The notes beneath the pieces were generated by a model. It searched no databases. It saw nothing but the letters and a program-made list of their open reading frames with translations, and was not told where the DNA came from. Positions 8,684-27,620 of a stretch of 33,213 bases of DNA are shown here, piece by piece (position 1 is the first letter of the stretch; each line of letters opens with the position of its first letter). Origin of the DNA: Pirellulales bacterium (GTDB lineage: Bacteria; Planctomycetota; Planctomycetia; Pirellulales; UBA1268); assembly GCA_029246985.1 (NCBI GenBank), contig JAQWMC010000067.1, positions 1 to 33,213 of the forward strand, read 5' to 3'. The translations under genes were made by a program, and so were the position numbers.

Positions 8684-9196
8684 TCAATTTAGTAGACGTT
8701 GCCAAAATTCAAGATCGAGCCATCTCTTGAACTTGTAGCCAGCTTCATGGATTGTTCCGGCGTGAGTGAATCCTACATGGCGATGAAGTGCAATGCTGGC
8801 TTCATTCGCCGAGTCGATACCAGCGACAAGAAGATGAAGTTCGTGCGCTGTAGCCTCCCGAATAATAGTCTCCAGTAAGAGCCGCCCAAGTCCTCGACGC
8901 TGATACTCCATCGCAATGTAAACAGAATGTTCAGCTGTCTTGGAATATGCTGGATAGGGTCGAAAGGGACCCCATGTCGCAAAACCGACCACTCTCCCCT
9001 GCTGCTCGACTCCAAAAACGGGGATACCAGCCTGTTTTTTTTCTTCAAACCATGCAGCAATCGTTGCCTCAGATCGGGGTGACTCTTCATACAGTGCTGT
9101 TGTCTGAAGAATTGCCTCGTTAAAAATATCTCGAATGTTCTTCAGATGCTTTTCATCACATCGCAGCACATGGGAACCAATTGGCTTATTGGTCAT
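8684..9196 (-). CDS. GNAT family N-acetyltransferase (phosphinothricin acetyltransferase-like)
   Basis: FNEAILQTTALYEESPRSEATIAAWFEEKKQAGIPVFGVEQQGRVVGFATWGPFRPYPAYSKTAEHSVYIAMEYQRRGLGRLLLETIIREA...HRHVGFTHAGTIHEAGYKFKRWLDLEFWQ: classic GNAT motif A (Q/RRxG). Confidence 0.93.
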   Translation of the reverse strand: MTNKPIGSHVLRCDEKHLKNIRDIFNEAILQTTALYEESPRSEATIAAWFEEKKQAGIPVFGVEQQGRVVGFATWGPFRPYPAYSKTAEHSVYIAMEYQRRGLGRLLLETIIREATAHELHLLVAGIDSANEASIALHRHVGFTHAGTIHEAGYKFKRWLDLEFWQRLLN

Positions 9197-10947
9197 GCAT
9201 CCACCACCTGCCGCGGTTCCTGTGGTGGTGTGAGCAGTGAGACAAGAATGAGAACCAAAAAACCAAGCGGAATTGTCACTAAACCTGGCTGACTAAATGG
9301 AATCGGTGAGTCGCCGCGTGGAAGGCCGTAGACTTTTTCAAACGTATCTGCCGAGAGGAGAATCCAGCTCAGCGAGGAAACCATTCCGACAGTAACGGCT
9401 GCCGTTATTCCCTGTTTTGTCGTTCGTGGCCAAAATAGCAACATGACCAGCGCTGGAAGATTTGCTGATGCAGCTATATGAAACGCCCATCCAACAAGGA
9501 AACTTACATTGAAATTCTTAAAAAGAATTCCAAGAGCCATAGCAACGACTCCAAGAAAAACAGCTGAGATTTTACCGGCTCGAACTTTTTCATGATCATT
9601 CATCGTGACGCCAAAACAATTTTCAATCAGATCATGAGCCACAGCGCCACTTCCAGCCATAATGAGCCCACTTACCGTACCAAGCACGGTGGTAAACGCA
9701 ATTGCTGATATCACTGCAAATAAGGTTTCACTAAACGACTTCGCAAGAAGTGGAGCTGCCATGTTGGAACTTGTCGGATCAAGGTATCCACTCGTCATGG
9801 CACCAAGGCCAAGATACAGCGTTAAGACATAAAATCCACCAATCGCTGCGATTCCAACTACAGTACTTTTGCGGGCTGCGGCTGCATCCTTGACGGTGTA
9901 ATACCGGATAAGGATATGCGGTAGAGAAGCTGTCCCACAAAAGAGGGCAAGCATAAGGCTGGCAAAGTTTAAACGATCCGTCAGTGTTCCAGATGAAAGC
10001 CCTTTGAAATATCCACCGGGTTTCAGTAGGTCTTTACCGTCACGGATAGTTGGTGTGAAGGTTGTATGCGTTCCTTTATCATCAGTGTGTTTTTTTGCTG
10101 ACCAGGTCACAACCTGTGAGTCTTCAAGGGTGGAAAGATATTCCAGTGGTCGTAACGGCCCCGTCTCACGTGCATCACCGTATCGTTCAGGAAGCTTGTG
10201 AATCGTCCCAACAGGACGGAGGTCATTCTCAGTTGTCTGTGGTTCACCATTCACAAGTACACGGCCATCTGGAGTACGTGTCTGCACCTGAGGCCGAAGA
10301 TCTTCTTCACCTTGCCGACCGGCGTTCAGTAAGAGTCCACGATTCAGAATCATGATCGTCAGGATGCCACAGAAGAATACCAGCAGCGAGCCCTTAATAA
10401 ACTGAACCCATGTCGTGGACACCATGCCCGCCGTCACAACAATTAAAGTTACCGCAACGCCAACCAGAATAACGCCAACGGCGTGCGGCAGTCCAAGGAG
10501 TGGGACAATGAGATGTCCTGCACCAACCATCTGTGGAATCAGATAAAAAATGCTGACAATTAATGTTGAGATAGCGACTGCAAACTTGATCCCTCGGCTA
10601 TTAAAACGGGCATCAAGTGCATCGGCAAATGTGAACTTACCAAGTGCTTTGATCGGTTCAGCAATAACAAACAGCGCCACGATCCAACCAGCAAGAAAAC
10701 CTATTGAGTAAAGAAAGCCGTCATAGCCATAGAATGCAATCATTCCACAGATACCGAGAAATGATGCTGCCGAAAGATAGTCTCCAGCAAATGCGATTCC
10801 ATTCACAAACCAATGGATTTCACCATGTGCTGCATAGTATCCCTTGGCGGACTGTCCTTTGCGGCCAAGCCAGAATGAAAGACCAATAACCCCAAGGACA
10901 AAGCTGGCAAAAATAGCAATGGCTACTGGTGATGAATCGTAGAGCAT
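9193..10947 (-). CDS. Sodium:solute symporter family protein (ActP-like)
   Basis: Likely start ATG at 10947 (MLYDSSPVAIAIFASFVLGVIGLSFWLGRKGQSAKGYYAAHGEIHWFVNGIAFAGDYLSAASFLGICGMIAFYGYDGFLYSIGFLAGWIVALFVIAEPIKALGKFTFADALDARF); multi-TM SSS family. The ORF-track start (11091) overlaps the DUF485 gene. 4-bp overlap with the GNAT gene. Confidence 0.92.
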   Translation of the reverse strand: MLYDSSPVAIAIFASFVLGVIGLSFWLGRKGQSAKGYYAAHGEIHWFVNGIAFAGDYLSAASFLGICGMIAFYGYDGFLYSIGFLAGWIVALFVIAEPIKALGKFTFADALDARFNSRGIKFAVAISTLIVSIFYLIPQMVGAGHLIVPLLGLPHAVGVILVGVAVTLIVVTAGMVSTTWVQFIKGSLLVFFCGILTIMILNRGLLLNAGRQGEEDLRPQVQTRTPDGRVLVNGEPQTTENDLRPVGTIHKLPERYGDARETGPLRPLEYLSTLEDSQVVTWSAKKHTDDKGTHTTFTPTIRDGKDLLKPGGYFKGLSSGTLTDRLNFASLMLALFCGTASLPHILIRYYTVKDAAAARKSTVVGIAAIGGFYVLTLYLGLGAMTSGYLDPTSSNMAAPLLAKSFSETLFAVISAIAFTTVLGTVSGLIMAGSGAVAHDLIENCFGVTMNDHEKVRAGKISAVFLGVVAMALGILFKNFNVSFLVGWAFHIAASANLPALVMLLFWPRTTKQGITAAVTVGMVSSLSWILLSADTFEKVYGLPRGDSPIPFSQPGLVTIPLGFLVLILVSLLTPPQEPRQVVDA

Positions 10948-10970
10948 CGAAGGGCCTCTCAATAAGAAAA

Positions 10971-11225
10971 TCAGGCGTCTGGAGATCTGCCCCTGCAGGC
11001 AACCATATAGATCAAGGCCAGCACAAAGGCTGAAGCAATTAATCCCATTCCGTAGGCAATCGCAAGATTGACTCCTCCGAGTGGTCGCCATGAAAGTACA
11101 TCTGGCCGAAACAAGACGATGCCCATGAATCCTAAGTAGAGTAGGACATAGATCAGAAACAGTCGCATACCGATTGTACGACTACGAACTGCTCTCTGAT
11201 CCTTCAATTGATGGTTATTCCCCAT
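10971..11225 (-). CDS. DUF485-like small membrane protein (two-TM partner of the symporter)
   Basis: Likely start ATG 11225: MGNNHQLKDQRAVRSRTIGMRLFLIYVLLYLGFMGIVLFRPDVLSWRPLGGVNLAIAYGMGLIASAFVLALIYMVACRGRSPDA; typical YjcH/DUF485 layout directly upstream of an ActP-type symporter. Confidence 0.82.
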   Translation of the reverse strand: MGNNHQLKDQRAVRSRTIGMRLFLIYVLLYLGFMGIVLFRPDVLSWRPLGGVNLAIAYGMGLIASAFVLALIYMVACRGRSPDA

Positions 11226-11314
11226 GATGTGATTCCTATGAATTCCCCAACAAGCGTCTATTACTTTCGTACCACGCAAAGTCTAGCGTAGTTTTCATCC
11301 AACCACAGCAAAGA

Positions 11315-14300
11315 TTACTCGACTGAAGGGAATTCATGATGCCCGGAAAGTCCAGCCGGGAGATTGTCACCAGCTTCAAGGAAGGATATGAGATCGAGAA
11401 TCTCTTGTCGCGTCAGGACATTGATCAATCCGGCAGGCATCGGTGAAACCTGGGAGGAAAATCGTTCTTCAACGTCTTTTTTCTGTATTCGTTTGATTTT
11501 CTCCGGCATCAGAAGATTTGGCCTGATGGTATAGGTTGCTGGCGTTTCGCTCGCAACAACTCCCGATACCACACGACCATCCGTAAGCAGAAATTGCACC
11601 ATGCGATAGTCGTCATCAATTTTCGACGACGGGTCAAGAATTTGCATAAGCAGGTCTTTCCCACGGAGTTTCTTCACGCTTTTCACGAGGTCTGGACCTA
11701 GGTTCACACCATGACCTGCTGCTACATGGCACTGCGTACACTGTGCTTTGGCAAAGGCATGCATACCCCGCGAGAGTGTTTCTTCATCCTGACTGACAGG
11801 AACTGTAGGAAAATCTTCTGCTTTCCACACTTTTACAAGGGTCGGCCGACACGCATCGAGTAAACGCTCGGCCTCCGCCTGATTACGAGCCACAACCATC
11901 TTCCCGTTCATCACAATCCAATGGCCAGGAAACGTGCACACGTACGGGTACACTCCCGGCTCCTGTGGTGCTTCGAAACGCAGAACGTGCACCAACGACT
12001 GACGTGTTGGGCCAATCATGGGAGTCGCTTCAAGAATCAAATTTTGTTTTTCTTTCGGAATAAAATCACTGGTTGCATTTTTTGGATCACGGGCCATTGC
12101 ATTGGCTGCAACACCAACCTCCTCCATCGCACCAGGCTGCACCAGAACAAGATTGTGGTCAGTCGCATCTGGATTCAGAAAAATAAGTTTGACGGGCTGA
12201 CCCGGACGGACGCTGAATTGCTTGGTTGTAAAAAGCATTCGCTCCGGTTCACATGAAATCCGTACCTCAACGGTCTCTGGACGCCTGTCGAATTCTCTGT
12301 CTTTCCCCTTCGCCTTGGGCTCCTGAATTTCAAGAGACCGCCGAGCTCGGTTCAGAAGAGCCGGAACGATACTATCTTGATCATTCTGCCAATGGTGTTG
12401 GAGCGGTTGTGACTCAAGTGCACTGACTGCCGCATAGGCAAGATGTCCGCCGATCGGCTGACGAAAAATACTCAGTACAGTCTCTAGTGCTTCTCGTGTA
12501 CCGATCCAACTTGCCGCAATGGCCGCCTCCATCCGCACAAGACCAGAGGAATCAGTAGCAGCTTTCAAAAGAATCTCATGCCGATCTGGTAGGGAGTTAT
12601 GCCAATATCGCAGCTGCCGGATTGCAGCGGCTCGTGCATGATGATTGGTATCTGAAGCCAACTCAACGAGTAGTTCTGGCCTGACAACACCAAGCGTTGA
12701 AAGACACGCCATCCCCTCAGCAAGAGAGCGGGCTCTCTCAGGATCATCCTCCTTGAGGGTCTCAATCCAGTCGTTCACTGCTTGAGTAGCCGGTGCGTGA
12801 TCACGATGGGCAAGTTCTCGTGTGGCGAGATACCGCACTCGGAACTCTCGGTGGCTTAGAAGTTCTGCAAGTTTTTTCTCTGATAGTTTCGAGAGTTGTG
12901 GAGCTTCTGACACCTTACCTTGCTTTGCTGTCACTCGCCAGATACGGCCTGACTCACGGTCGCGACGGGAATCCCTCAACGAGTATTGCGCATGTCCCTT
13001 CACGGGGTTATACCAATCAACAACAAAGAGATCTCCACGTGGACCAAAATGAAGATCGACCGGAATGAAGCTGAGGTTTGTTGAAAAAATCAGATCACTT
13101 ACGTATTGCTCGTTGAAGCCAAAGTCATTTTCAATCCAACGATGAATTTCAATGCGGTTCGTGGGCTTGTACCGTGCTTTGATAAACCCGCCTTGTAGTT
13201 CCACTGGAAATCCCGGGCTATCAACAAATGCCTGACCACAGGTACCTGAATAGGCCTGCAAGCCCTGAGGCCGTGCATGTTGCTGCGGATATGGTGGATC
13301 CAACGAATGAAATGCCTCGGCAAAAATTGGGTGACTGGCAACATGATTTCCCCACGGATCAAACGTGACGCCCCACGGATTGGTACTTGGATAGGTGCCC
13401 ATTGCTGTGAGCCTGTGGATCTTTGGCTCATAGCGAAACCAGCCACTGTTCTGCTGTCTGACTGGCCCGTGAGGAGTTTCTATCTGTGAGTGGTGAAAGA
13501 TTGATTCCCGAAACAGGAGTGCCCCGTCAGGTGTCCAGATAAAATCATGTAATGCATGATGTGAGTCTTCGGTACCAAACCCAGAAAGAACGACCTCGTG
13601 AACATCGGCACGGTCATCTCCAGTCGTATCCTTCAAAAATGTCAAATTTGGTTGCTCTGAGACGTATACTCCCCCGTCACCAAATTCAAAAGACAGTGGC
13701 ACGTGAAGATCATCAGCAAACACTTTTGATGTATCTGCTTTTCCATCACCGTCAGTGTCTTCAAGAATCACAAGCCGATCATGTGGCTCGAAACCTGGAT
13801 AGATATGTGGGTATGCCTGTGATGTGCACACCCAAAGCCGACCTTGTGTATCCCACCGCACCTGAATTGGATTGGCGATCTCAGGAAATTCTTCTTCTCC
13901 TGCAAACAGATTGACCTCAAAGCGTGGATCGACTTTGAATGCCTTCTGTTCCTCGGATGCCGGGAGCCAGTTATTTGCTCCACGTGTCTCAAGAGCGGCT
14001 GGGAGTTGAGGCACATTTGAATCATCAACCTGTTCAGGAACGGGTCGACCATGGGCCATATTCCAGATCCTACGATCTCGATTCGTGCACATGATCTCAA
14101 AATTCCGCATGGCTGGGAGAAAATCAAGATACCCGTACCGTTCGTTGCGACCACCCGTGTAGTAGAAGGTATTCAGTGGTCTGTATCGTCTGAAAAATTG
14201 CCGCTCCAGATCAACAACGGCCAGACGCAGCGATTCCTGTACGCTGGCGGCGGGACCGCCAAAACAGCTCTCAAAAAATGTGCGTGCAAATTCAGCATAG

Positions 14301-16435
14301 CCTTCTTTTGTAAGATGACATCCATTGATAGTCAAATCATCAGTGCGACTTAGTGCAGAACGCATTGGTGTATCTACATCAACGAAACCAACCTGTTGCT
14401 CAGCCGCAACCTTCCTCATCACTGATGAATAGCGGGCAATATTTTTATTGTTCTGATCGGCGGCAGCCACACCACTCACATTTTCATTTGGAATGGGTGA
14501 AACAAGCACGATTCGTGGAGCTGTTTTCCCATTAAAGGCTTTTGTCTTTGTACGCTGCAGAAATGCTTCGAGTCGTTTTCGGAATTCTGGAATACCGGCT
14601 TCACCTGCAAACGACTCGTTGAAGCCAAAAGCTGCAAAGATGACATCCGCTTTCTCATGAAACAGGTGCTGTTCAAGGTCAGCAAAATTCTCTGGCCGTG
14701 GCATGAGACCAACTTCATCACCAGACCAGGCGAGGGTTCGAATAACTAGTTCATGGTCCGGAAATCCAGCATGAAGTGTTGCTGGTACAAAACCAAATAA
14801 CTGCGCTCGCTCAAAAAGTGTGTTTCCAATTAGACAAATATGATCACCCTGCTTCAGCTTGAGTGGCAGGGTTGTCGCTGTAGCATCACATGCCGGTGGT
14901 CGAGCCGCGGTGTCCAGAAAGAGTGCGTACTGAGAAAAATCTTCGTCTTGTTTTTCAGGCTCTGAAGACTTCTGCTTTGCCCGGGGCGCTGCGGTAAGAA
15001 CGACAGGAGTCTTCTTACGATCGATAGCTGGTTGAACGAAGGCTGTTTTTTTTGATTTCTTTGCTGATGGCGTAGCCTTTGTCACTTTTTTCTTTTTTTT
15101 ACGCCATGAATGATTCTTCCACCAGTCGGGGGCCTCGGCTTCGACTTCGTGGGTGTGCTGCCGCAGCCGCTGCATCATGTTGGCAAGACGTTCGGGCTCA
15201 TCCGTCGATCGGTTCGTCGTTTCAGAAACATCACTGTCGAGATTATAAAGTTCAGGATTTTCGAATGATTCATCAACGACAATTTTCCAGGGTCCTTCAC
15301 GGTAGGCAACCGAACCACCCCATCGCCAATAGAGGGGATTTGGTCGGTTGATTGGAGATCCCTCGATGGCCGGTACGAGGTTCACACCGTCATATGTATT
15401 CTCTGGAAGCTTGATACCAGCTGCTGCCAAAGCGGTCGGGAAAAAGTCACTTCCGATAATAGGCAGATCCGTTTCACTCCCTGGCTCAATGCGACCTGGC
15501 CAACGCACAATCCCAGGAACTCGGTGGCCTCCTTCGTACATAGATCGCTTGCGACCACGAAGTCTGCCGGCAAGACCACGACCTGGTCCCTTGTCACCAG
15601 CTCCTTCCGGGCCGTTGTCACTTGTGAAAAACACAAGCGTCGAATTACTCACACCAAGATTATCAAGTGAATCCATGACAGTACCAAACGCATAATCAAG
15701 TTGTGTGATATTCGCTCGATAGGTTCGCTCTTCAAGATCAGCAATTCCTGCATGCTGTTGTTGATACCGCTCTGCAGATGCTATCGGATAGTGTGGTTCG
15801 TGCGTCCAGACAGCAAGAAAGAAGGGCTTTGTTGGATCACGCTTGGTCTCAAGCCATGACGCAGCTTCTTGTGCAATAAAAGGAGCTGAATAGGCGTCGA
15901 CTTTTCCAACGACTTTCCCATTCCTCACAAAATTATTGGGGAATGCGTGGCTAGGTGCTGCGTTGTTTTGTGTCGCAAGCCACCAGGCGTACCCATGATC
16001 TGATGGCTGCGGTTGATCTGGTGAATTAAACATTCCATTGAGATGCCACTTACCGACATGACAGGTGTCATATCCCGCTTGCTGAAGAAGCTTTGGAAGT
16101 GCATGTTCACTCGTGCGAAGATGGATTGGGCTCCTGTTTGGAATCCAGGTAAAGACTCCATTCCGAAACGGTGTCCGTCCCGTCAGCAGACTCGACCGAG
16201 CTGGTGAACAGACACTGGATGCCGCATGGCAGTCTGTCAGTCGGAGGCCCTGGCTCGCAAAATGATCGAGATTTGGTGTGATTGCATCAGGATTGCCATA
16301 GCAACCAAGTTCGCCGTAGCCCATGTCATCGGCAAGAAAAAGTATGATATTCGGCCGGTCATCGGCCGTTGCAGATGCCATGGAAAAAACCGTGGCAGTG
16401 ACGAATGAAGCGAGAATGATGTGCAGGTTCTTCAT
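11315..16435 (-). CDS. Multidomain fusion: sulfatase + SGNH hydrolase + PVC-type dehydrogenase beta-propeller + HEAT-like repeats + cupredoxin + cytochrome c
   Basis: Single ORF (ATG at 16435, MKNLHIILASFVTATVFSMASATADDRPNIILFLADDMGYGELGCYG). Sulfatase FGly motif CSPARSSLLTGR at 16196-16210; Lys-rich linker about 14940-15110; SGNH-like LKQGDHICLIGNTLFERAQLFGF...ADVIFAAFGFNESF; propeller IQVRWDTQGRLWVCTSQAYPHIYPG...DTDGDGKAD; HEAT-like segment; DHNLVLV...VCTFPGHWIVMNGKM type-1 Cu signature (11897-11938 for the C...H...M loop); CTQCH heme motif 11726-11740. Confidence 0.92.
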   Translation of the reverse strand: MKNLHIILASFVTATVFSMASATADDRPNIILFLADDMGYGELGCYGNPDAITPNLDHFASQGLRLTDCHAASSVCSPARSSLLTGRTPFRNGVFTWIPNRSPIHLRTSEHALPKLLQQAGYDTCHVGKWHLNGMFNSPDQPQPSDHGYAWWLATQNNAAPSHAFPNNFVRNGKVVGKVDAYSAPFIAQEAASWLETKRDPTKPFFLAVWTHEPHYPIASAERYQQQHAGIADLEERTYRANITQLDYAFGTVMDSLDNLGVSNSTLVFFTSDNGPEGAGDKGPGRGLAGRLRGRKRSMYEGGHRVPGIVRWPGRIEPGSETDLPIIGSDFFPTALAAAGIKLPENTYDGVNLVPAIEGSPINRPNPLYWRWGGSVAYREGPWKIVVDESFENPELYNLDSDVSETTNRSTDEPERLANMMQRLRQHTHEVEAEAPDWWKNHSWRKKKKKVTKATPSAKKSKKTAFVQPAIDRKKTPVVLTAAPRAKQKSSEPEKQDEDFSQYALFLDTAARPPACDATATTLPLKLKQGDHICLIGNTLFERAQLFGFVPATLHAGFPDHELVIRTLAWSGDEVGLMPRPENFADLEQHLFHEKADVIFAAFGFNESFAGEAGIPEFRKRLEAFLQRTKTKAFNGKTAPRIVLVSPIPNENVSGVAAADQNNKNIARYSSVMRKVAAEQQVGFVDVDTPMRSALSRTDDLTINGCHLTKEGYAEFARTFFESCFGGPAASVQESLRLAVVDLERQFFRRYRPLNTFYYTGGRNERYGYLDFLPAMRNFEIMCTNRDRRIWNMAHGRPVPEQVDDSNVPQLPAALETRGANNWLPASEEQKAFKVDPRFEVNLFAGEEEFPEIANPIQVRWDTQGRLWVCTSQAYPHIYPGFEPHDRLVILEDTDGDGKADTSKVFADDLHVPLSFEFGDGGVYVSEQPNLTFLKDTTGDDRADVHEVVLSGFGTEDSHHALHDFIWTPDGALLFRESIFHHSQIETPHGPVRQQNSGWFRYEPKIHRLTAMGTYPSTNPWGVTFDPWGNHVASHPIFAEAFHSLDPPYPQQHARPQGLQAYSGTCGQAFVDSPGFPVELQGGFIKARYKPTNRIEIHRWIENDFGFNEQYVSDLIFSTNLSFIPVDLHFGPRGDLFVVDWYNPVKGHAQYSLRDSRRDRESGRIWRVTAKQGKVSEAPQLSKLSEKKLAELLSHREFRVRYLATRELAHRDHAPATQAVNDWIETLKEDDPERARSLAEGMACLSTLGVVRPELLVELASDTNHHARAAAIRQLRYWHNSLPDRHEILLKAATDSSGLVRMEAAIAASWIGTREALETVLSIFRQPIGGHLAYAAVSALESQPLQHHWQNDQDSIVPALLNRARRSLEIQEPKAKGKDREFDRRPETVEVRISCEPERMLFTTKQFSVRPGQPVKLIFLNPDATDHNLVLVQPGAMEEVGVAANAMARDPKNATSDFIPKEKQNLILEATPMIGPTRQSLVHVLRFEAPQEPGVYPYVCTFPGHWIVMNGKMVVARNQAEAERLLDACRPTLVKVWKAEDFPTVPVSQDEETLSRGMHAFAKAQCTQCHVAAGHGVNLGPDLVKSVKKLRGKDLLMQILDPSSKIDDDYRMVQFLLTDGRVVSGVVASETPATYTIRPNLLMPEKIKRIQKKDVEERFSSQVSPMPAGLINVLTRQEILDLISFLEAGDNLPAGLSGHHEFPSVE

Positions 16436-16437
16436 GC

Positions 16438-17979
16438 TCAATTATCTTTCATTGGTTGATCAGAAAAGCGATATGGATCGTCATGTTGAATCATTTGTTC
16501 CAGCAACAGTGATTCCATTGCTGAGCGAGTTGTAGTGAACTCAGGATCATCGGCCAGATTTTTCTGTTTTGCAGTTGGCTGCTCTGGAAGACTTTTGACC
16601 ACAGTTGGAACATGGTGCTCAGCAAGGAACTCATGTGGGTTCTCTTGAATATTGAAAAGTTGCGTGTGTAATCCGCCAGATGGAGATTCGTACTTGATGA
16701 TTTTCCAGTCACCTTTGCGAACACTTCGCATACCCGGCTTCTGCCCACCGCAGTACACACCGTACAGAACATCTCGAACTGTTTGCTTCTTTTCTTCGAT
16801 GACAGGCAGAAAGCTTTTTCCTTCATCTGTTGGTGGTGGAGTCACACCAGTGATAGCGCACAACGTTGCCAACGTATCACCAAGATACGTATTGCCTGGC
16901 ATGCGACTACCGGGACGGACTCCTGGGCCTTTGACAACAAGTGGGACCCGCCAGGTGTGCTCATAGAGATTTTGTTTGCCTTGGAGCCCATGACGGCCAA
17001 TCGCAATACCATGATCAGATGTATAAAAAATCCATGTGTTCTCTAATTCCCCCATGGCAGTGAGCTTCTGAAGCACGCGTTCCACCTGTGTGTCAACGTT
17101 TTCATTACATGCATATTCACGACCAATTTCATTACGAATAGTCTGGGTGTCTCGATTACCCCAGACACCGCTGACTGATACTTCATCACGAACATCCATA
17201 TGCGTGTTATCAAAAGGATGGTGCGGCAGCCAGTTTGATGGGACTGGTGGCTGTTGAGTATGACTCGCTGGAAGTTCTTTTTTATCTGTGTGATTTGTTG
17301 CCCCGTAATGAGCTAGGTATTCGGGTGTTCCATCACGTGTATCGTGAGGATGAGACAATCCAAAATAGATAAGAAACGGATCTTCATCACCAGACTTTTC
17401 ACGGTCTGTCAAAAAATTGATGACTTGATCACCATGCCACTGACTCCCCGTCTCTGCCGTACCGCCCCGCTTGGTTGCATCATTTCGTACTGTGAACTGC
17501 TGATTCGCTTTTTCATAACTATTGCCACGCTTACACGTCCGCATCGTGTCATAACCTGCTCCGTTGAACACGGCAGCCAACGTGTTTGATTCAAGGCCTG
17601 GTGGACAATGTAATGCAGCGTTCGGCTGACGCGGCTTCCCCCCTTCACGGCGTGCCTTCTTCGGACCAATCGGCAGATGCCATACCGTTCGACCACACAT
17701 CACCATGTGCCGACTGGGTGTACAGACCGCGCCAGAAAACGAGCCCATATGGTACGCCGCATCAAATACCATTCCCTCACGAGCCAGCTTCTCAATGCAT
17801 GGTGCGTTGAGCGTTGAAGATGGATTATAGAATTTGAAATCAAATGGCGATTGGTCATCAACAATGATGAAAAGAATATTCGGTCGCTTCTCTGAATGAG
17901 TCTCTTCTGAAAATGCAAACCCCGAAAGAATAACTGCAACTATTACCGATCCAAAGCAACAAACGATACGCTTCATCAT
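16438..17979 (-). CDS. Sulfatase (S1 family)
   Basis: Likely start ATG 17979 (MMKRIVCCFGSVIVAVILSGFAFSEETHSEKRPNILFIIVDDQSPFDF); FGly motif CTPSRHMVMCGRT at 17710-17724 region; GxxGKQNLYEHTWRVPLVVKGPG C-terminal sulfatase motif. Confidence 0.93.
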   Translation of the reverse strand: MMKRIVCCFGSVIVAVILSGFAFSEETHSEKRPNILFIIVDDQSPFDFKFYNPSSTLNAPCIEKLAREGMVFDAAYHMGSFSGAVCTPSRHMVMCGRTVWHLPIGPKKARREGGKPRQPNAALHCPPGLESNTLAAVFNGAGYDTMRTCKRGNSYEKANQQFTVRNDATKRGGTAETGSQWHGDQVINFLTDREKSGDEDPFLIYFGLSHPHDTRDGTPEYLAHYGATNHTDKKELPASHTQQPPVPSNWLPHHPFDNTHMDVRDEVSVSGVWGNRDTQTIRNEIGREYACNENVDTQVERVLQKLTAMGELENTWIFYTSDHGIAIGRHGLQGKQNLYEHTWRVPLVVKGPGVRPGSRMPGNTYLGDTLATLCAITGVTPPPTDEGKSFLPVIEEKKQTVRDVLYGVYCGGQKPGMRSVRKGDWKIIKYESPSGGLHTQLFNIQENPHEFLAEHHVPTVVKSLPEQPTAKQKNLADDPEFTTTRSAMESLLLEQMIQHDDPYRFSDQPMKDN

Positions 17980-18007
17980 GGAATCCTCTTTGACTAAACT
18001 AGAACTA

Positions 18008-21000
18008 TTACGGCACGAGAAAATCAATCACAGCCTCTGGCATCGTTGCATGATGCACCTGAGGTGCATCTGGATAGACTAATTCACAGGGTACATGCGC
18101 CGCATCAAGTCGTTCTTTTAATTTGACCCCGAAGTTCGCTGTATGAGTCGGGTCTTTTGCATCGTGCCCAAGTGCTGGCTTATTGTTGTAAAGCATGTAC
18201 ACAGGAGGATCATCTGCCGTCACAAGTGCATACGGAGAGTATTCCTGAATCCACGGTAGAAGAGTTTCACGTTTTTCAAGGAATCGAGTGAAGCGTCCAC
18301 TGCGTCGATCACCCTCTGATGCAATGGCTGGAATACCAAAAGCATGCCCGCCGTAGTGACTATTTGGAGTCCACTCTTTCATCTGTTTTGGATCGAGTGT
18401 TGTTTGTGCACCACTGACTGCAACAGCAGTCAGCCGGGTTGATTCACGAGCAATGGGATCATCACTTGTGGGGTCTGCCATCTCATCATGAAACGCGAGC
18501 CACAGACTTGTACACGCTCCAGCCGATCCACCAGCTGCGACAATCCGATTGGTATCAAGATGCCATGCTGCCGCTTTACTACGAACAAATTGGAGCGCCC
18601 GTGCAGCATCCGTGAGAGGTGCTTTGACAGGAGGCTTCATTCCTTCGGCCTCATCAACAAAGCGATAGTCAATTGATGCAACCGATATTCCTGCTTCGAG
18701 TGCGGGTTGAAGATTTTGAGATAAACCACTCAGACGGTTTCCACCAGTCCATCCTCCACCATGGATGAAAAAGAGAAGTGGTGCAGGATTCTCTGCAGAG
18801 GCTGAAGATGCCTTCCAAAAATGAAGCCTTTGTTTAGGATGTTTACCATAGCTCACATCAAGTGTTGGCCGTGGCCCAAACTGCTTCCAATAGGCTGTTT
18901 TAAACGGGTTCTCTGAGGGTCCATTAACATCTTCATTGACGAGGTCTGGCTGGACACTTTCCCACCATTTCTCATAGGTAGTCGCAAGGCGGTGAACAAC
19001 ATCGTAATGCTCTGAAGCCAGATCATGCTCTTCACTTGGATCAGAATCGATGTCGTAGAGCTCCCAGGCATCTGGTTTATTTTTTGTATTAACCAAACTC
19101 CATCTGCCTTCTCGAATACGACAGTTTTTAAAGGCATTATCAGCAGCCTCACCACGTTTCCACCGCCCCTGATGAGTAACCAACGGGCGGTCTGGCCACT
19201 CAGCGTTTTGGTTCATAAGTAATGGAACAAGGCTGCGGCCCTCTATTTTCTTATCAACATTTTCGGGCACCTTCACCCCAGCAAGTTCACAAAGTGTCGG
19301 TAGCACATCGATATGTGCTGTGACCTGTGAAACATCGACGCCTTCTGGCAGGACTCCCTTCCATTTCCAGAATGCTGGGACACGTGTTCCTCCCCGGTAT
19401 GGAGAGTTTTTCGCTCCTCGCATTTCCGCATTGAAAAAGATACTTCCCGCCGCTGAACCATTATCTGTTGAGAAAACAATCAGTGTATTTTCTGCAATCC
19501 CAAGTGATTCAATCATACGGAGCAATCGCCCCATGTTCGTATCGATATTTTCTACCATCGCATAGAACGGTGCCACACGATCAACCTGTTTTAATTTTTC
19601 TATTCCAGCTTCCTGCAGCGCTGTGCGATACTGTTCGTCACCAGATGCTGGAGGAACAAGTGGGCCGTGTGGTGCATTCGTCGATAGATAGCAGAAGAAA
19701 GGCGTATCTTTTTCCTTGCACTTTGTAATCCATGTTTCGGCTTCACGAAAAAAGATATCGGTGCAGTACCCACGCGTCTGGACGAATCTGCCATTGCTTC
19801 GAATCATTGGATTAAAATATTTGTTCCCCGTTGCAACACCACAACTGCCTTGAAAACTCTGCCCAATACCTCCACCACCGTGAATGAACACTCGGTCAAA
19901 CCCACGACTCCCTGGCTGATAGGCATCTTCATCACCAAGATGCCACTTGCCAAAAATTCCGGTTGTGTATCCAGCCGTTTTCAATAGTTCTGGAAGTGTT
20001 GTTTGTGAAAGTGCCATCCGTTCTCGTTCAAGGATGGTGTGCGTAACACCTGAATGGAATTCATGGCGACCGGTCATGAGTGCTGCTCGAGTTGGAGCAC
20101 ACGTCGGACTGACATGATATTCCGTCAAACACACACTCTGTTTTCGCATCCGATCAAGAGACGGTGTCTTCAACACCGGATTACCATGGCTGGCAATATC
20201 ACCGTACCCCTGATCATCTGTCATGACATAGACAATATTTGGGCGACGTCCTGAGAGCGTTGGTATGTGCGACACCAGTCGAGCGGGTATTGTTTTGTGT
20301 TTCCCTGCAGATTTTGATGGGTTGACCTTTGAATCATTTTGCTTTGAGAGCTGCCCTGGTGGCCTTGCCCCATTTCCCTTTCGCTTCGTCAGACTGTCAC
20401 CAAGATCGGCTCTCACTTTTTCGGCAATGGCCTGTAGTTGTTCGACAACCTTGGGATACTGCTTGGCAACATCCTTGGTCTCATGTGGGTCAGTTGAAAG
20501 ATTAAAGAGTTCCTCACCAATTTTGTGCTGCGTATATTTGCCTGGCTTTCCATCCCGACCCAAATCCTGTCCCTGCATTGTTCGATAGCCATGTGGAAAG
20601 AAGAGCTTCCAGTCTCCCTTTCGAACTGCTTGAAGTTCATTTTTGCGGTAATAGTAATGATACGTGTCGGGCGCATCAGCAGCTCGTGTTCCACCACAAA
20701 AAAGATCAAGGTGATCATGCCCATCAATCTTTTTTCCACGCAGGATGCAATGACCTTCAGTATCTGTTTTCAAGGGTTGGCCGGTGAGCTGAGCAAGTGA
20801 TGGCAAAAGATCAATTGTCATGAGTGATTCATCACTGACTGTCCCTGCTGGAATTACCCCAGGCAGCCGAGCAACGCACGGCACACGAACCCCACCTTCA
20901 AATGTTGTCCCCTTTCCTTCGCGGAAAGAGCCGGCAGAACCAGCATGGTTCCCATAGGAAAGCCAGGGACCGTTATCACTCGTAAAAAGCACAAGGGTGT

Positions 21001-23455
21001 CATCAAGGTGTCCGGTCTCCTCAAGTGCAGTGAGAATTGATCCGACAGATGCATCAATCTCTGCCACGACGTCACCATACAGACCACCAGCCGCCTTCCC
21101 TTGAAAACTATTGCTTGCGAAAAGTGGTACGTGTGGCATCGAATGAGCCAGATAGAGAAAGAAGGGGCGCCCATCTTTGTCTGTACCGGCACGTTTAAGA
21201 AAATCGACAGCCCGTTGAGCATATCGCTTGGTCAGCGTTGTCTGATCTTCCGGAGTTACTTCCTTATCAATGATTTCTTCATTTTGAAAAAGTGGTAAAG
21301 GTGGATATGTGCCCGGTTTTGCACTTGGATGATACGGCCACATATCGTTGGAATATGGCAGTCCAAAATATTCGTCAAAGCCATGCCGTGTTGGAAGAAA
21401 CTGACGATGATGGCCAAGGTGCCACTTGCCAACCATGCTTGTCTGATATCCTCGTGATCGCAACAACTCGGCCAGCGTCGTCTCTTCACCTGAAAGACCA
21501 TGTGTCACTTTTGGACTCAACGCGCCATGAATTCCTATACGATTGGGATAGCAACCGGTGAGAAGCGCTGCTCGTGATGCTGAGCAGACTGGTTGGGCAA
21601 CATGAAAGTCTGTCAGCTTGATTCCTTCCCGCGCTAACCTGTCGATATGCGGTGTCGCTGCAAATGTTCCCCCATAACAGGCCGGGTCGGCGTAGCCCAT
21701 ATCATCTGTGAAGATGATCACAACGTTAGGTGGTGACTGGCGAGGGCGACCTTCCTGAGCATTGTGCTTGTGATCAGCTTTACTTGCTGCCTGTTTTTTT
21801 GGAGTCAGTTTTTTTGCAGCTAGCTTTTTCTTTTTTGGCTTTCCTTGAGGTTTATTCTTTCCGTCCAGATCTGCAAGCCGTTGGTTTTCGGTTGCAATCT
21901 CATTCCAATCTTTTTCAAGCTGTTTGACCTGCTCAGGGTGGGATAATGCCAGGTTGTTTTGCTCTGTTCGATCTGACGACAGATCATAGAGTTCCCACGG
22001 GCCATCTCGTGCAGCAACCAGTTTCCAGTCGTTATGCCGAACTGCCCGATGTCCATCGTGGCACCACCACAATGTTTCGTGCGGCGGTTGTGCGACAGGG
22101 TTTGTGAGGCATTCCACAAAACTTCGACCCTGGAGAGGTGGCTTGGCCTCACCTGAATGCTCTTCTGATTGTTCAACACCCGCCAGCTCGAGAACCGTTG
22201 GAACGATATCAATGACATGGACTGGCTGTTCGCGCAAAGCGCTCTTTGATGGAATTCCGGCTGGCCAATGCACGATCCAGCTGGTCGAAATACCTCCTTC
22301 ATGCACCCAGGTCTTATGGCGTCGAAAAGGTGTATTGGCACAACTGGACCAGCCTGGTCCAAGGCAGAGATACGTGCCGGCAGAACCAGCCGGACGTGCA
22401 GGGTCATGCCCTTTCCCACGAACCATAATCTCAGCTGATCCACCATTATCACTCAGGCAAAGAATGAGCGTGTCTTCCATGGCATTCATGGCTTCGAGCT
22501 GTTGGATAACCTCGCCAACGGCCTGGTCCATCGCATCAATCATGGCAGCATGAATCGCCATCTTTGTGGCTTGAAACGTTTGCTGCTCTGGCGTGAGGCT
22601 CTGCCACGGGAGTGGGCGATTGACTTCGCCTGAGCCAAGTTTTTCCATCGCATCTGGAAAGTCATATGGAGGACCGAGGTCTTCTTCCATCACCGCGAGT
22701 GGTGCGTTGATTATTCCACTCTGAACAAGCCGCTTATACCGAGCCTGCTGCATGACATTCCACCCTGCCTGATAGCGATGTTTATATTTTTCAATAATGT
22801 CTTGCGGTGCATGCAATGGAAAATGTGGTGACGTGAAGGCAACGTAGCTAAAAAATGGTTTGTCTCCATGATGTTCTGCATGTTCACGGAGACACGCTGC
22901 AGCATGTTCACCGACTGCTGTGGTCACATAGAAATGATCTTTTTCTTCAGCAGGCTTCCCATCAACAGTGATACCGGCAGGATCGAAGAAATCATTTTGC
23001 CCACCTTGAATGTCTAGCGAATGGGCAAACCCCTGCTCCAGTGGGTTACCATCCACGTGCCATTTTCCGGAGTGGTATGAACGATACCCAGCTGCTGCAA
23101 GTCGTTCGGGGAGAAGCTGTGCCCAGGCTGGTCGCCCACCGCGGTTTCCACCCTGCACGCCAGGCATTTTGTCGCGGCGAATTGATTGCGCGTAATAACC
23201 TGTGAGCAGTGCACCGCGGGTCGGCCAACACCGAGCGGTGTTGTAGCCTTGCGTGAATCGCAAACCACCATGAGCAAGTCGATCAAAGTTCGGCGTTTCT
23301 ATTTCACTGCCGTAACAACCAAGATCAGAAAACCCCATATCATCGGCCAGTATCACCACCACATTTGGTGGAGCCGCCCATATCCGTTGCGACATGCCCA
23401 TCACGATCAGACACGTTCCGAGTATCAAGGTAATCCATTGAGGATGTCGCTTCAT
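18008..23455 (-). CDS. Triple sulfatase + C-terminal alpha/beta hydrolase (BD-FAE/HSL-like) fusion
   Basis: Likely start ATG 23455 (MKRHPQWITLILGTCLIVMGMSQRIWAAPPNVVVILADDMGFSDLGCYG). Three FGly motifs: CWPTRGALLTG (23216-23230), CSASRAALLTG (21572-21586), CAPTRAALMTG (20087-20101). C-terminal hydrolase LHFWKASS..PLLFFIHGGGWTGG and VAAGGSAGACTSLW. Confidence 0.93.
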   Translation of the reverse strand: MKRHPQWITLILGTCLIVMGMSQRIWAAPPNVVVILADDMGFSDLGCYGSEIETPNFDRLAHGGLRFTQGYNTARCWPTRGALLTGYYAQSIRRDKMPGVQGGNRGGRPAWAQLLPERLAAAGYRSYHSGKWHVDGNPLEQGFAHSLDIQGGQNDFFDPAGITVDGKPAEEKDHFYVTTAVGEHAAACLREHAEHHGDKPFFSYVAFTSPHFPLHAPQDIIEKYKHRYQAGWNVMQQARYKRLVQSGIINAPLAVMEEDLGPPYDFPDAMEKLGSGEVNRPLPWQSLTPEQQTFQATKMAIHAAMIDAMDQAVGEVIQQLEAMNAMEDTLILCLSDNGGSAEIMVRGKGHDPARPAGSAGTYLCLGPGWSSCANTPFRRHKTWVHEGGISTSWIVHWPAGIPSKSALREQPVHVIDIVPTVLELAGVEQSEEHSGEAKPPLQGRSFVECLTNPVAQPPHETLWWCHDGHRAVRHNDWKLVAARDGPWELYDLSSDRTEQNNLALSHPEQVKQLEKDWNEIATENQRLADLDGKNKPQGKPKKKKLAAKKLTPKKQAASKADHKHNAQEGRPRQSPPNVVIIFTDDMGYADPACYGGTFAATPHIDRLAREGIKLTDFHVAQPVCSASRAALLTGCYPNRIGIHGALSPKVTHGLSGEETTLAELLRSRGYQTSMVGKWHLGHHRQFLPTRHGFDEYFGLPYSNDMWPYHPSAKPGTYPPLPLFQNEEIIDKEVTPEDQTTLTKRYAQRAVDFLKRAGTDKDGRPFFLYLAHSMPHVPLFASNSFQGKAAGGLYGDVVAEIDASVGSILTALEETGHLDDTLVLFTSDNGPWLSYGNHAGSAGSFREGKGTTFEGGVRVPCVARLPGVIPAGTVSDESLMTIDLLPSLAQLTGQPLKTDTEGHCILRGKKIDGHDHLDLFCGGTRAADAPDTYHYYYRKNELQAVRKGDWKLFFPHGYRTMQGQDLGRDGKPGKYTQHKIGEELFNLSTDPHETKDVAKQYPKVVEQLQAIAEKVRADLGDSLTKRKGNGARPPGQLSKQNDSKVNPSKSAGKHKTIPARLVSHIPTLSGRRPNIVYVMTDDQGYGDIASHGNPVLKTPSLDRMRKQSVCLTEYHVSPTCAPTRAALMTGRHEFHSGVTHTILERERMALSQTTLPELLKTAGYTTGIFGKWHLGDEDAYQPGSRGFDRVFIHGGGGIGQSFQGSCGVATGNKYFNPMIRSNGRFVQTRGYCTDIFFREAETWITKCKEKDTPFFCYLSTNAPHGPLVPPASGDEQYRTALQEAGIEKLKQVDRVAPFYAMVENIDTNMGRLLRMIESLGIAENTLIVFSTDNGSAAGSIFFNAEMRGAKNSPYRGGTRVPAFWKWKGVLPEGVDVSQVTAHIDVLPTLCELAGVKVPENVDKKIEGRSLVPLLMNQNAEWPDRPLVTHQGRWKRGEAADNAFKNCRIREGRWSLVNTKNKPDAWELYDIDSDPSEEHDLASEHYDVVHRLATTYEKWWESVQPDLVNEDVNGPSENPFKTAYWKQFGPRPTLDVSYGKHPKQRLHFWKASSASAENPAPLLFFIHGGGWTGGNRLSGLSQNLQPALEAGISVASIDYRFVDEAEGMKPPVKAPLTDAARALQFVRSKAAAWHLDTNRIVAAGGSAGACTSLWLAFHDEMADPTSDDPIARESTRLTAVAVSGAQTTLDPKQMKEWTPNSHYGGHAFGIPAIASEGDRRSGRFTRFLEKRETLLPWIQEYSPYALVTADDPPVYMLYNNKPALGHDAKDPTHTANFGVKLKERLDAAHVPCELVYPDAPQVHHATMPEAVIDFLVP

Positions 23456-23530
23456 GGTTTCTCCATAATCGATGAAAAGCGGGATAAAAGTCTGGGAACG
23501 ACCACACAACATATTGTTGAGAACAGCAGG

Positions 23531-24676
23531 TTATTTCTGTTGAATGTCCTCTGCTAATTTTTTTAGAGATGTCGTGAGTTCTGACCCTTTGAGGGTTCGT
23601 AAGCCGATGAGTTGTGGTCTCATCTGAGCAGCCCATGATGGATCGGCTGCTATCTTCGCATCCACCTGTGCCCGAAGTGCATCGTGTTCCATGCCCTCTA
23701 ATTCCCCAGCCGCAGCGACAGCACTCCGAAGATATTCAGCTGCTTGAACAGATGGATTGGATTTACTTGGTACATCAACCGTACCGAGTGCCCACGCAGT
23801 TCCCTCAATAAAGTGCTCCTGAAAAGCAGAATCACTCCACGTCTCATTGTTATGGCCAAGGTTTGTATAAAACACTCGACCTCGACCATAGTCACGAATC
23901 CACGAGACTGGAACATGCCAAGGGTGTTTGGGAGTACTGGCCGCCATATCTATTGAAAGCAGTACACGAACATTGTCAGGCTGATATCGAGGTCCATATT
24001 GATAGATTTCATCCTTCCACCGAAATCGTTCTGGAAACATCTTGACGATGCGGTGCTGAGGTTCATGATTCACAAATCCGTGCTCACCTTTGGCCGTCCA
24101 CGGATGTCCAGCAAAATGACCGCCTATCATCTCAACGTACGCGTCTGAGCTTTTCAGTGTGTCGCTTGCTGCATGAATACCGATAAAAGCATGACCTTCT
24201 CGAATCCATTTAAGAAATGCCCCGAGATCAGGAATCGGCAACTCACCCGTTGTACTGACAAAGACAACCCCATCGAACTGGGCAAGTGATTCCGGTGAAA
24301 AAGCAACCGCAAACTTCTGCTGTAAAACTTGCTGCCATGGTTGATCCGCTTTTTGAAAAGCTTTCTGTTTCTCTTTGAACTGCGACTCAACCTGAGACCA
24401 CTTCTCATCTGTCACATTTTTTCCTCGTCGAGGTCGCTTCGGTTGTGATGGTCTATTTGGAGGCATTCGGAGGAAATCAACATGAAACATGCCCGTCTCA
24501 CGGCCAAGTTTTTCCAAGATCGGTTCAGCTGTTTCAATTGAACCGTGGCGAAAGCCCTTTGTGACTGTCACGACAAGAAGTCGTGCTGGTTCGCCCTGCT
24601 CAGCTGCCTGTACATCACACACACCAAAGAAGAACAGACCGACAAGAAAATACCATCTCAGGATTCGAGTATTCAT
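23531..24676 (-). CDS. ThuA domain-containing protein (exported)
   Basis: Signal peptide then ARLLVVTVTKGFRHGSIETAEPILEKLG..., FDGVVFVSTTGELPIPDLGAFLKWIREGHAFIGIHAASDTLKSSDAYVEMIGGHFAGHPW...HEPQHRIVKMFPERFRWKDEIYQYG: ThuA-like family. Confidence 0.93.
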   Translation of the reverse strand: MNTRILRWYFLVGLFFFGVCDVQAAEQGEPARLLVVTVTKGFRHGSIETAEPILEKLGRETGMFHVDFLRMPPNRPSQPKRPRRGKNVTDEKWSQVESQFKEKQKAFQKADQPWQQVLQQKFAVAFSPESLAQFDGVVFVSTTGELPIPDLGAFLKWIREGHAFIGIHAASDTLKSSDAYVEMIGGHFAGHPWTAKGEHGFVNHEPQHRIVKMFPERFRWKDEIYQYGPRYQPDNVRVLLSIDMAASTPKHPWHVPVSWIRDYGRGRVFYTNLGHNNETWSDSAFQEHFIEGTAWALGTVDVPSKSNPSVQAAEYLRSAVAAAGELEGMEHDALRAQVDAKIAADPSWAAQMRPQLIGLRTLKGSELTTSLKKLAEDIQQK

Positions 24677-24710: not shown

Positions 24711-27431
24711 TTATTGAGACTGAATGCACCACAGTGAATCATGTGTTCGGAGAAATATTTCACCATCAACACAGACCGGAGTAGCAACTGTCATTTCTTC
24801 AAGCATGCCTTCGCCAAGAATTTTGGGCTTTTCGCCCTTTTCTCCTGGCCATGCAAGACACCATGAATGACCATCTTCACGAGTCAGCAGGACATGATCA
24901 TCAACAATAATTGGTGATGAACTGAATTTATTCCGATTCTTTGGAAGACTATCCTCCCAAAGTGTTTGACCTGTTTTTAAATCCAGGCAAGACATCAGTC
25001 CTTTATCACCACAGACCATCACTCGACCATCACGAATAGCTGGCGTCGGTACATCAGCGCCCAATGGCTCGCGTTCCCAGGCAATATGGCTTGCCGTGAC
25101 GTCTCCTGATCCACCGCGCCGTATTGCAGTTATGGTCTTCCCTCGTGCATACGGTGCAATCACAAATTCACCGGCGACAACAGGAGATGAAATGGATCGA
25201 AAGAATGCATTATCTTCCGGATTGAGACCCCCGACTCGCCAGATTTCTCGGCCGTCCGCAGCGTCATGGGCAGTCACATGATCGGCACCGAGCACAATGA
25301 GCATCTCAGTTGGCTCATTCCATTCGGCGTTACCAGCAACAACAACAGGTGTTGAATAGCTTTGTGCCGCCTCCTCTGGAGCATCCAGTATGCGATCATG
25401 TTTCCAGAGAACATCGCCTGTTTGCCGATCAAATGCGACCAGATAACTTGGGCCTGTCTGCATGACTGCGACAACAACCGCTTTTTGTGTCAGCACTGGG
25501 GACGTTCCAAGATCCCACCACAAAGTGTCTTCACCAAACTGTTCTTGAAGATTTGTCTTCCATACGATGGCACCGTCAGTGAGTGACAGGCACGCCAGTT
25601 CCCCGCTCTTGAAGTACACCCAGACATGGTCACCATCTGTGACTGGCGAGGAATTACACCCCGTCGCTTTTTTATGTTTACCCGGGCGAAGATCACCCAG
25701 TTGCTGTCGCCAACATTCTTTCCCGCCTCGATCGACACATAAAATTCCATCATGACCTTCGATATCACTGGTCAGCACGAGTCTGTCTCCCCACACTACC
25801 GGCGTACTCGCACCAAGACCAGGAAGCGGGACTCGCCACCTGATATTGTCATCAGGACTCCACGACACAGCGTATCCATCACCAGTTGCAACGCCATTAC
25901 GCGTGGGTCCTCGCCAATTTGGCCAGACCGAAAGGTCAGATAATTTTCGCCGTGCTTTCACCGGCAGTACCGGAATTTTTCTGGTTGCTGATGCCATTGG
26001 TTCAACTACGGCTGATGGTGACTCTGGCTGCCACCAATCATTCAGGTTTTGCTGAAGTTGTTTGACAACCTTGGGGTTGGCAGTTGCAACATTGTTTTGT
26101 TCATCGGGGTCAACGGCTACATCAAAGAGTTGAACTTGACCTTTTTCAAAAGACTCCTTGGACACAGCATCTATGTTGGTTTCACCTTTTGGTAAGGAGT
26201 GGCTACCAGGCACACGATGGGTCACTGGTTCGATAAGTTTCCAGACTTCTCCGTTTGGTGCATCTTTGACTGTCCACCTCCACAGAAGGTTTCTTCCCGG
26301 CTTTTCAATGTCAGCGAGCGTATGGACATAGCAGGCACCGAAGAGCTGTTTTCTCGCTGTAACAGCTTTTTCATCAAGGAGATTGATTCCTGGCAGATCC
26401 TTTGGCGCTGGAATCTGACAACGTGCCAATACGGTTGGTACGAGATCGAGTGAACTGGCAAGTGAGTCGTTTGTTCCTGGTGCTATCGTGCCAGGCTGTC
26501 GAAGCATGATTGGTGTTCGAAGTCCGCCGTCGTACGGAGATCGCTTCGACTTCCCTGCATACCTTCCATTTTCAGGGTTCGTAATCCAACCGTTGTCACA
26601 CACATAAAGAACAAGTGTATTTTCTGACAAACCTTTGGCATCCAAGTGATCGATCAGATTACCTACGGTCGTGTCAAACCTCTCAACATTTCCCCAGTAC
26701 TTTGCAACATGAATACTGTCTGTTTTCGATTCATAGTGTTGAACAAATGACTTTTCTGGATCGTGCGGAGTATGCGGCAGCATTGGTGCATACCAGACAA
26801 AAAATGGTTGCTCTGTATCACTGCACCGATCAATAAAGTCAAAGATCGGCTGCATGGTTTTTCGTCCAATGGCAAGACCATCATCACCGTGACGGGACCC
26901 CTTGGTCATTCCTTCATCAAAACCACCACGGGAAAAATGACCCTGCCACCATTTTCCTGTTTGGAGACTTCGGAAGCCATGCTCCCCAAGAAGTTTCGGA
27001 AGTGTTGGCCACTTGGAAAACCTTTTTGTCATCTCCTCCCGTCCTGCTTCAAAAAGTTTTTGACCTTCAGGCGAACGACGGGAGATACCGTGGGTTTCCG
27101 GAGGATCATTTCCCACGATCAGATGCTCGTGCGGATAGCGGCCCGTGATGAGTGATGCGAGACTTGGGCAGCATAGACTGAATGGCACGTACCCTTGCCG
27201 GAACACAAGGCTTTCAGAAGCCAGTCGATCGAGGGCTGGTGTCTGAAGATGTTCATGACCCATAAATCCATAATCACTCCAATGCTGATCATCAGAGAGA
27301 ATCAGCACGACATTTGGTGGGGCAGACTCTGCTCTCACCGCAAAAGCAGCAGAGAGAAGAATAATTCCTAGAAAAAAGAAGGACCTGGATAGCAGGATAC
27401 GCTTCAAACAAGATGTTGATTCTTTGCGCAT
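24711..27431 (-). CDS. Sulfatase + PQQ-like beta-propeller fusion
   Basis: Likely start ATG 27431 (MRKESTSCLKRILLSRSFFFLGIILLSAAFAVRAESAPPNVVLILSDDQHWSDYGFMGH; an upstream in-frame ATG is possible). Active-site segment FSLCCPSLASLITGRYPHE (27159-27173). C-terminal WPNWRGPTRNGVATGDGYAVSWSPDDNIRWRVPLPGLGASTPVVWGDRLVLTSD ... GDVLWKHD ... TGQTLWEDSLPKN repeats of PQQ-like propellers. Confidence 0.92.
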   Translation of the reverse strand: MRKESTSCLKRILLSRSFFFLGIILLSAAFAVRAESAPPNVVLILSDDQHWSDYGFMGHEHLQTPALDRLASESLVFRQGYVPFSLCCPSLASLITGRYPHEHLIVGNDPPETHGISRRSPEGQKLFEAGREEMTKRFSKWPTLPKLLGEHGFRSLQTGKWWQGHFSRGGFDEGMTKGSRHGDDGLAIGRKTMQPIFDFIDRCSDTEQPFFVWYAPMLPHTPHDPEKSFVQHYESKTDSIHVAKYWGNVERFDTTVGNLIDHLDAKGLSENTLVLYVCDNGWITNPENGRYAGKSKRSPYDGGLRTPIMLRQPGTIAPGTNDSLASSLDLVPTVLARCQIPAPKDLPGINLLDEKAVTARKQLFGACYVHTLADIEKPGRNLLWRWTVKDAPNGEVWKLIEPVTHRVPGSHSLPKGETNIDAVSKESFEKGQVQLFDVAVDPDEQNNVATANPKVVKQLQQNLNDWWQPESPSAVVEPMASATRKIPVLPVKARRKLSDLSVWPNWRGPTRNGVATGDGYAVSWSPDDNIRWRVPLPGLGASTPVVWGDRLVLTSDIEGHDGILCVDRGGKECWRQQLGDLRPGKHKKATGCNSSPVTDGDHVWVYFKSGELACLSLTDGAIVWKTNLQEQFGEDTLWWDLGTSPVLTQKAVVVAVMQTGPSYLVAFDRQTGDVLWKHDRILDAPEEAAQSYSTPVVVAGNAEWNEPTEMLIVLGADHVTAHDAADGREIWRVGGLNPEDNAFFRSISSPVVAGEFVIAPYARGKTITAIRRGGSGDVTASHIAWEREPLGADVPTPAIRDGRVMVCGDKGLMSCLDLKTGQTLWEDSLPKNRNKFSSSPIIVDDHVLLTREDGHSWCLAWPGEKGEKPKILGEGMLEEMTVATPVCVDGEIFLRTHDSLWCIQSQ

Positions 27432-27620
27432 GTGACTCATCATGTTCGGAAACACCCCATAAAAATGATTACGAATAAATTTCTGTAAGCACCCTCTTAG
27501 ATCATCCTTTATAACGTAAAGAAATGTCATTGCATCCAGTGCCACTCAGAAGCACCTTGTGCTTGCTTTGATGTTCCCCGGTTCATTTTATTACATCTCT
27601 AAAAAAGAAGGCTGCTGCCC

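Follow-up and report, generated by a model that had tools for sequence, protein, structure and literature searches.

A 33,213-nt stretch of a Pirellulales genome (contig JAQWMC010000067.1, positions 1 to 33,213; hereafter the window) carries a long open reading frame in which a sulfatase precedes a module with predicted copper- and heme-binding domains. This arrangement raises two questions: is the joint between both parts genuine, and does it point to a function that they share?

Sulfatase and redox module in one predicted secreted chain

The frame spans positions 16441-11315 of the reverse strand, i.e. 1708 codons counted from a TTG, with no internal stop; the ATG at 16435 lies two codons downstream, and the frame overlaps the upstream gene for a 529-aa sulfatase by a few bases (Table 1). 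The initial annotation, made from the sequence alone, had claimed an in-frame union of a sulfatase with a redox module of the type found in the PVC group. One ORF, shared by seven species, and domain-by-domain profile searches bear it out: Pfam and NCBIfam return the claimed order of sulfatase, SGNH, DUF7133/TIGR02604 propeller, HEAT, cupredoxin and TIGR02603 cytochrome. Pfam matches over cut-off are Sulfatase (residues 30-343), SGSH_C (298-414), Lipase_GDSL_2 (551-716), DUF7133 (829-1173), HEAT_2 (1257-1342) and Copper-bind (1392-1517), with Cytochrom_C at 22.3 bits (cut-off 21.3). Both NCBIfam models pass their curated cut-offs, TIGR02604 with 201.8 bits (122.2) and TIGR02603 with 88.6 bits (68.15). 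A hydropathy scan of the whole protein revealed the N-terminus as its sole strongly hydrophobic stretch and no internal transmembrane segment, and the protein is predicted to be secreted through a single signal peptide serving both modules. Of the proposed "membrane-bound dehydrogenase" layout, the domain arrangement stands, but "membrane-bound" survives as a family name only.

Table 1. Features of the fusion gene and of its operon (window positions; residues numbered along the fusion protein).
Feature	Position	Strand	Basis
Complete fusion gene	11315..16435	-	Likely ATG 16435, in-frame TTG upstream at 16441; fused ORF kept in 7 species
Putative signal peptide (aa 3-26)	16364..16435	-	Hydropathy scan
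S1-type sulfatase domain (aa 30-440)	15122..16354	-	Pfam Sulfatase (PF00884) 189.6 bits and SGSH_C; PDB 3ed4, E 3.7e-78
FGly motif CSPAR (aa 78-82)	16196..16210	-	Sequence; two FGE-family genes in genome
Lys-rich linker (aa 441-510, 70 residues)	14912..15121	-	13 K/R in 30 residues; dN/dS 0.11-0.18 over 7 species
AAA AAA AAG run (contains A AAA AAG) in linker	15092..15100	-	Invariant in 7 species; possible, unproven slippage site
SGNH-fold domain (aa 506-735), Thr-Asn-His replacing Ser-Asp-His	14237..14926	-	Pfam PF13472; motif columns; Foldseek Axe2
Six-bladed propeller, DUF7133/TIGR02604 "dehydrogenase" (aa 826-1180)	12902..13966	-	Pfam/NCBIfam; AF2 pLDDT 79.6, pTM 0.85; Foldseek
HEAT-repeat helical domain (aa 1185-1375)	12317..12889	-	PF13646; AF2 helices
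Cupredoxin (aa 1385-1520), ligands H1429, C1502, H1507, M1511	11882..12289	-	PF00127; auracyanin/azurin matches; ligands invariant
Cytochrome c domain (aa 1545-1700), CTQCH, axial Met candidate M1668	11342..11809	-	TIGR02603 88.6 bits; Kustd1711 match
Upstream sulfatase, 529 aa (S529)	16438..18027	-	ORF and Pfam; overlaps fusion ORF
Three FGly sulfatases and BD-FAE esterase, single 1834-aa ORF	18008..23512	-	ORF, Pfam, sequence
ThuA-family protein	23531..24676	-	PF06283; PDB ThuA-like
Sulfatase fused to PQQ/BamB-like propeller, 944 aa	24711..27545	-	Pfam
DUF485 small protein and Na+ symporter related to ActP/MctC	9193..11279	-	Below equivalog cut-offs; syntenic in family

The first domain has both the fold of an S1 FGly sulfatase (PF00884, 189.6 bits) and its C/S-x-P/A-x-R motif, found as C78-S-P-A-R82 just as initially read, and is apparently intact. 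Searches of the genome's contigs, on which all genome-wide statements below are based, returned two FGE-family genes and a cytochrome-c assembly gene. At the other end of the chain, the predicted copper ligands (H1429, C1502, H1507, M1511) and heme motif (C1568-x-x-C1571-H1572) were located and are kept in all orthologs whose sequence spans them, as are, more broadly, the patterns H..C..H..M, CxQCH and S[PA]MP. The redox part (1200 residues) was modelled with AF2 (pLDDT 78, pTM 0.73); in Foldseek the model hits auracyanin, SGNH esterases of the Axe2 type and the Kustd1711 cytochrome, and it shows the HEAT helices.

The SGNH domain lacks the Ser-Asp-His triad of catalytic SGNH esterases. Its motifs read GNT and NGxH instead of the expected GDS and DxxH throughout the family and in the majority of remoter homologs, i.e. 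Thr and Asn occupy the positions of the catalytic Ser and Asp. Because this Thr-Asn-His triad is kept across relatives, the deacylation first suggested for this domain is not supported, and the domain probably plays a structural or glycan-binding role without catalysis.

The "dehydrogenase" label of the propeller is likewise unproven, since its model resembles lactonase/DFPase folds and PQQ sugar dehydrogenases about equally. All Foldseek matches are weak (11-14% identity), and the two types reach similar scores. The best E-values belong to a luciferin-regenerating enzyme, DFPase and a lactonase, folds that are those of hydrolases, and a search of the propeller sequence against the PDB gave no useful match and no PQQ dehydrogenase. 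The propeller might then be a lactonase-like hydrolase or a binding scaffold, with the copper and heme domains serving another redox partner. Nevertheless, the highest TMq among the listed matches (0.61) is that of the PQQ sugar dehydrogenase 3a9g, and in nearly all relatives examined the propeller shares its chain with a cupredoxin and/or a cytochrome; we consider a hydrolase or scaffold unlikely. The fold also matches 7cgz and 6h7t, of the PQQ sugar dehydrogenase class sGDH/Asd/AA12, weakly and without a sequence match. Sugar oxidation by the propeller is plausible.

Conservation and origin of the joint

The fused frame is found in seven separately assembled species of one genus of related, water-dwelling planctomycetes (Pirellulales): the window genome, G001 (with a run of N within the sulfatase part), G005, G008, and G002, G003 and G007, which are cut by contig ends. 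Across the 70 linker residues, their codon alignment contains no stop codon, no frameshift and a single in-frame codon gap, in one species. Relative to the window, linker dN/dS is 0.11-0.18 at a synonymous divergence of ~0.2 to ~1; the linker is under purifying selection in the seven species. A stop codon or frameshift missed through an assembly error is therefore ruled out, and homologs are not always two adjacent genes, being fused in these seven species and standalone in others.

The linker lends itself to two further explanations. First, it could be a cut site: a polyprotein, with one signal peptide for the whole chain, would be exported and then cleaved in the lysine-rich segment, so that the mature enzymes act separately. 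The length of this K/R-rich and presumably flexible segment, a comparable basic segment separating domains in the adjacent triple sulfatase, and the absence of a signal peptide from the redox part of the fused species are all compatible with such processing. As no protease or processing site was identified, and as a mere cut site has less need of the constraint seen on the linker codons, we judge this scenario unlikely. Second, programmed -1 slippage at A AAA AAG could yield, besides the full fusion, a sulfatase-only product with 23-25 extra residues. In 7/7 species the A-run is invariant and a stop in the -1 frame follows after 23-25 codons; however, conserved lysines of the gene often keep an invariant codon (31/55 sites), which renders the invariance of the run not significant, and no convincing structure was seen downstream (z -1.5). 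Slippage is thus very improbable.

Three other species of the genus (G004, G006 and G009, ~77-79% identity), as well as other genera, encode the redox module in a standalone gene whose product bears a signal peptide of its own, which indicates that the fusion is derived. In G006, G009 and G014 this gene comes immediately after the one orthologous to the 529-aa sulfatase gene. As for the N-terminal sulfatase, its orthologs in other genera (~68-77% identity) occur alone or joined to other sulfatases, and in most of them the C-terminus is a short basic tail equivalent to the initial portion of the linker; the same tail, DWWRTHDWNPKRPAKRQQ, closes the fused sulfatase orthologs of G017. In G028, the standalone ortholog of the N-terminal sulfatase occupies the position that the fusion has in the window, flanked by the 529-aa sulfatase ortholog and the symporter. 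In a tree of 63 redox modules, the seven fused sequences are monophyletic (SH-aLRT 100), and the tree requires two switches between standalone and fused states, one for this clade and one for G089/L127. We infer that a sulfatase gene located beside the redox gene lost its stop codon, that the linker derives from the short basic C-terminal tail of the sulfatase together with the former junction, and that the signal peptide of the redox gene disappeared.

The second switch concerns another genus. G089/L127 (L096 4071-11327) contains a 2418-aa ORF that starts with the redox module and continues with three sulfatases, the middle one orthologous to that fused in the window; identities to the window are 76% for this sulfatase and 82% for the propeller. 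This fusion of the same two partners' orthologs in reverse order is an independent event and argues for functional coupling. The Candidatus Kuenenia label of L127 is probably an error in naming the MAG, whose sequence clusters with the window's family.

Among 80 named relatives in GTDB r220, the N-terminal sulfatase fusion occurs in six loci (L114-L117, L162 and L169) and the reverse order in one (L127), with no sulfatase within the redox ORF of the remainder, some of which are cut by contig ends. Sulfatases were sought with a profile made from 16 diverse ones; there were none in 31 redox ORFs of 29 further loci, many of these ORFs ~1700 aa long, and none of the long TIGR02604 ORFs of 20 further loci is fused. 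The distant homologs of ~1700 aa had been candidates for additional sulfatase fusions and were rejected (0/31), length alone having misled; one of them, scanned with Pfam, carries F5/8-type domains. The suggested search for the same domain order in other planctomycetes recovered it in the other species of the fused clade, with one reverse-order case elsewhere, and not in the other redox ORFs examined. Outside the family, sulfatases adjoining redox orthologs are mildly, and marginally, enriched (8/60 versus 2/60, p = 0.047).

A fusion-rich operon and a possible coupled function

The operon extends from 27545 to 8684 and encodes the sulfatase-propeller fusion, ThuA, the triple-sulfatase-esterase ORF, the 529-aa sulfatase, the fusion, DUF485 with an ActP/MctC-like symporter, and a GNAT protein. 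The gene for the sulfatase with a PQQ/BamB-like propeller (24711-27545) is conserved within the genus. The DUF485, symporter and GNAT genes (8684-11279) lie directly behind the sulfatase genes, with synteny in several genera; together with the esterase of the operon, the symporter might allow the uptake of released acetate.

Let FusN denote the N-terminal sulfatase of the window's fusion, Tri1-3 the sulfatases of the triple ORF and S529 the 529-aa sulfatase. Joins found across the family include subsets of the triple ORF, such as Tri1+Tri2 (in G004) and Tri1+Tri2+S529 (in G005), as well as Tri1+Tri3+esterase, Tri1+Tri3+FusN, S529+FusN, Tri2-like+FusN, redox+sulfatase+FusN+sulfatase and FusN+redox. 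The locus thus reads as a family-wide sulfatase operon with many different fusions. Given that the sulfatase has so many partners, the fusion may reflect a permissive locus and not a specific coupling: stop-codon loss in a rearrangement-prone operon would have joined neighbours that keep their old, separate jobs. Sulfatase gene fusion accompanied by a high degree of rearrangement has also been reported in planctomycetes (PMC4807772). Such neutrality sits poorly with the in-frame retention of the joint in 7/7 sampled species of the clade, despite synonymous divergence of up to ~1 and with linker dN/dS of 0.11-0.18, and with the fusion of the same two partners' orthologs twice, in opposite orders. 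We regard it as improbable.

We lean, with modest confidence, towards a two-module secreted enzyme that arose by gene fusion inside a sulfatase operon and couples desulfation with sugar oxidation and Cu/heme electron transfer. The sulfatase would strip sulfate esters off an extracellular or periplasmic sulfated glycan, and the six-bladed propeller, probably PQQ-sugar-dehydrogenase-like, would oxidise the exposed sugar; the type-1 copper centre would relay the electrons to heme c, from where they would enter the respiratory chain. The tether would hold both activities in equal amounts and in the same place, and its lysines may hold the polyanionic substrate. The reverse-order fusion and the conserved operon lend this coupling indirect support.

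A more speculative extension, which we deem rather improbable, is an oxidative route for sulfated glycans, in which desulfation is followed by immediate oxidation to a keto-glycoside in the same protein and then by the action of 3-keto-sugar enzymes instead of classical glycoside hydrolases. Such a route is suggested by the ThuA gene of the operon and by another locus of the genome (L199 319-2697, G000:C77), at which a sulfatase shares its chain with a 3-keto-disaccharide hydrolase domain (PF06439); the 16 PF06439 matches of the genome and the absence of any glycoside hydrolase or lyase domain seen by Pfam in the operon are also consistent with it. Among PF06439 proteins are the 3-ketotrehalose hydrolase BT2157 and an enzyme proposed to hydrolyse 3'-ketolactose (PMC9007349). 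The genome also encodes a 1975-aa protein combining a GH3 glycoside hydrolase with a sulfatase, its frame still open where the sequence examined ends (L194 3-5927, G000:C5). One of the 16 PF06439 genes lies in the window itself (3-563) and is cut by the contig end.

Known counterparts of the two modules

Planctomycetes and verrucomicrobia are rich in PVC-type CxxCH redox proteins. In the literature covered, which leaves most subscription journals outside, this family receives two incidental mentions and no account of its function, and no report of a sulfatase joined to a cupredoxin, or more generally paired with a Cu/heme redox module, was found in planctomycetes. That redox modules became covalently joined to the same sulfatase ortholog twice, independently, provides a "Rosetta stone" clue that at least this redox subgroup may work on sulfated glycans, turning an open question on the family into a directly testable one. 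Moreover, a locus at which close relatives combine the same sulfatases in many ways offers a natural series for studying the origins of multi-enzyme proteins.

Each part of the fusion has known counterparts. With S1 sulfatases, of which the nearest solved are the arylsulfatase 3ed4, the GalNAc-6-sulfatase 7stt and the kappa-carrageenan sulfatase 9fo1 (S1_16), it shares a full-length Sulfatase domain and the CSPAR FGly motif, to which it adds ~1270 residues of linker and redox extension. The PVC-type heme-binding CxxCH proteins (TIGR02604 and TIGR02603, DUF7133; "putative membrane-bound dehydrogenase") display the same order of SGNH, propeller, HEAT, cupredoxin and cytochrome; in the window, the module follows a sulfatase and lacks its own signal peptide, whereas the other relatives examined are unfused except for the reverse-order case.

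Sulfatase fusions as such are already published for planctomycetes. Kim et al. 2016 (PMC4807772) describes gene fusions joining sulfatases to each other, to glycoside hydrolases, or to esterase/lipase or HEAT_2 domains; the passages covered name no cupredoxin, cytochrome or DUF7133 partner, and the HEAT_2 case may or may not correspond to the architecture described here. The sulfatase-glycoside hydrolase fusions of Kiritimatiellales (PMC6388578) similarly pair a sulfatase covalently with another carbohydrate-active domain, but their partner is a hydrolase, whereas that of the window is a redox chain. Judged by its sequence, the fusion is real and conserved, an unusual combination of known parts and not a new kind of system.
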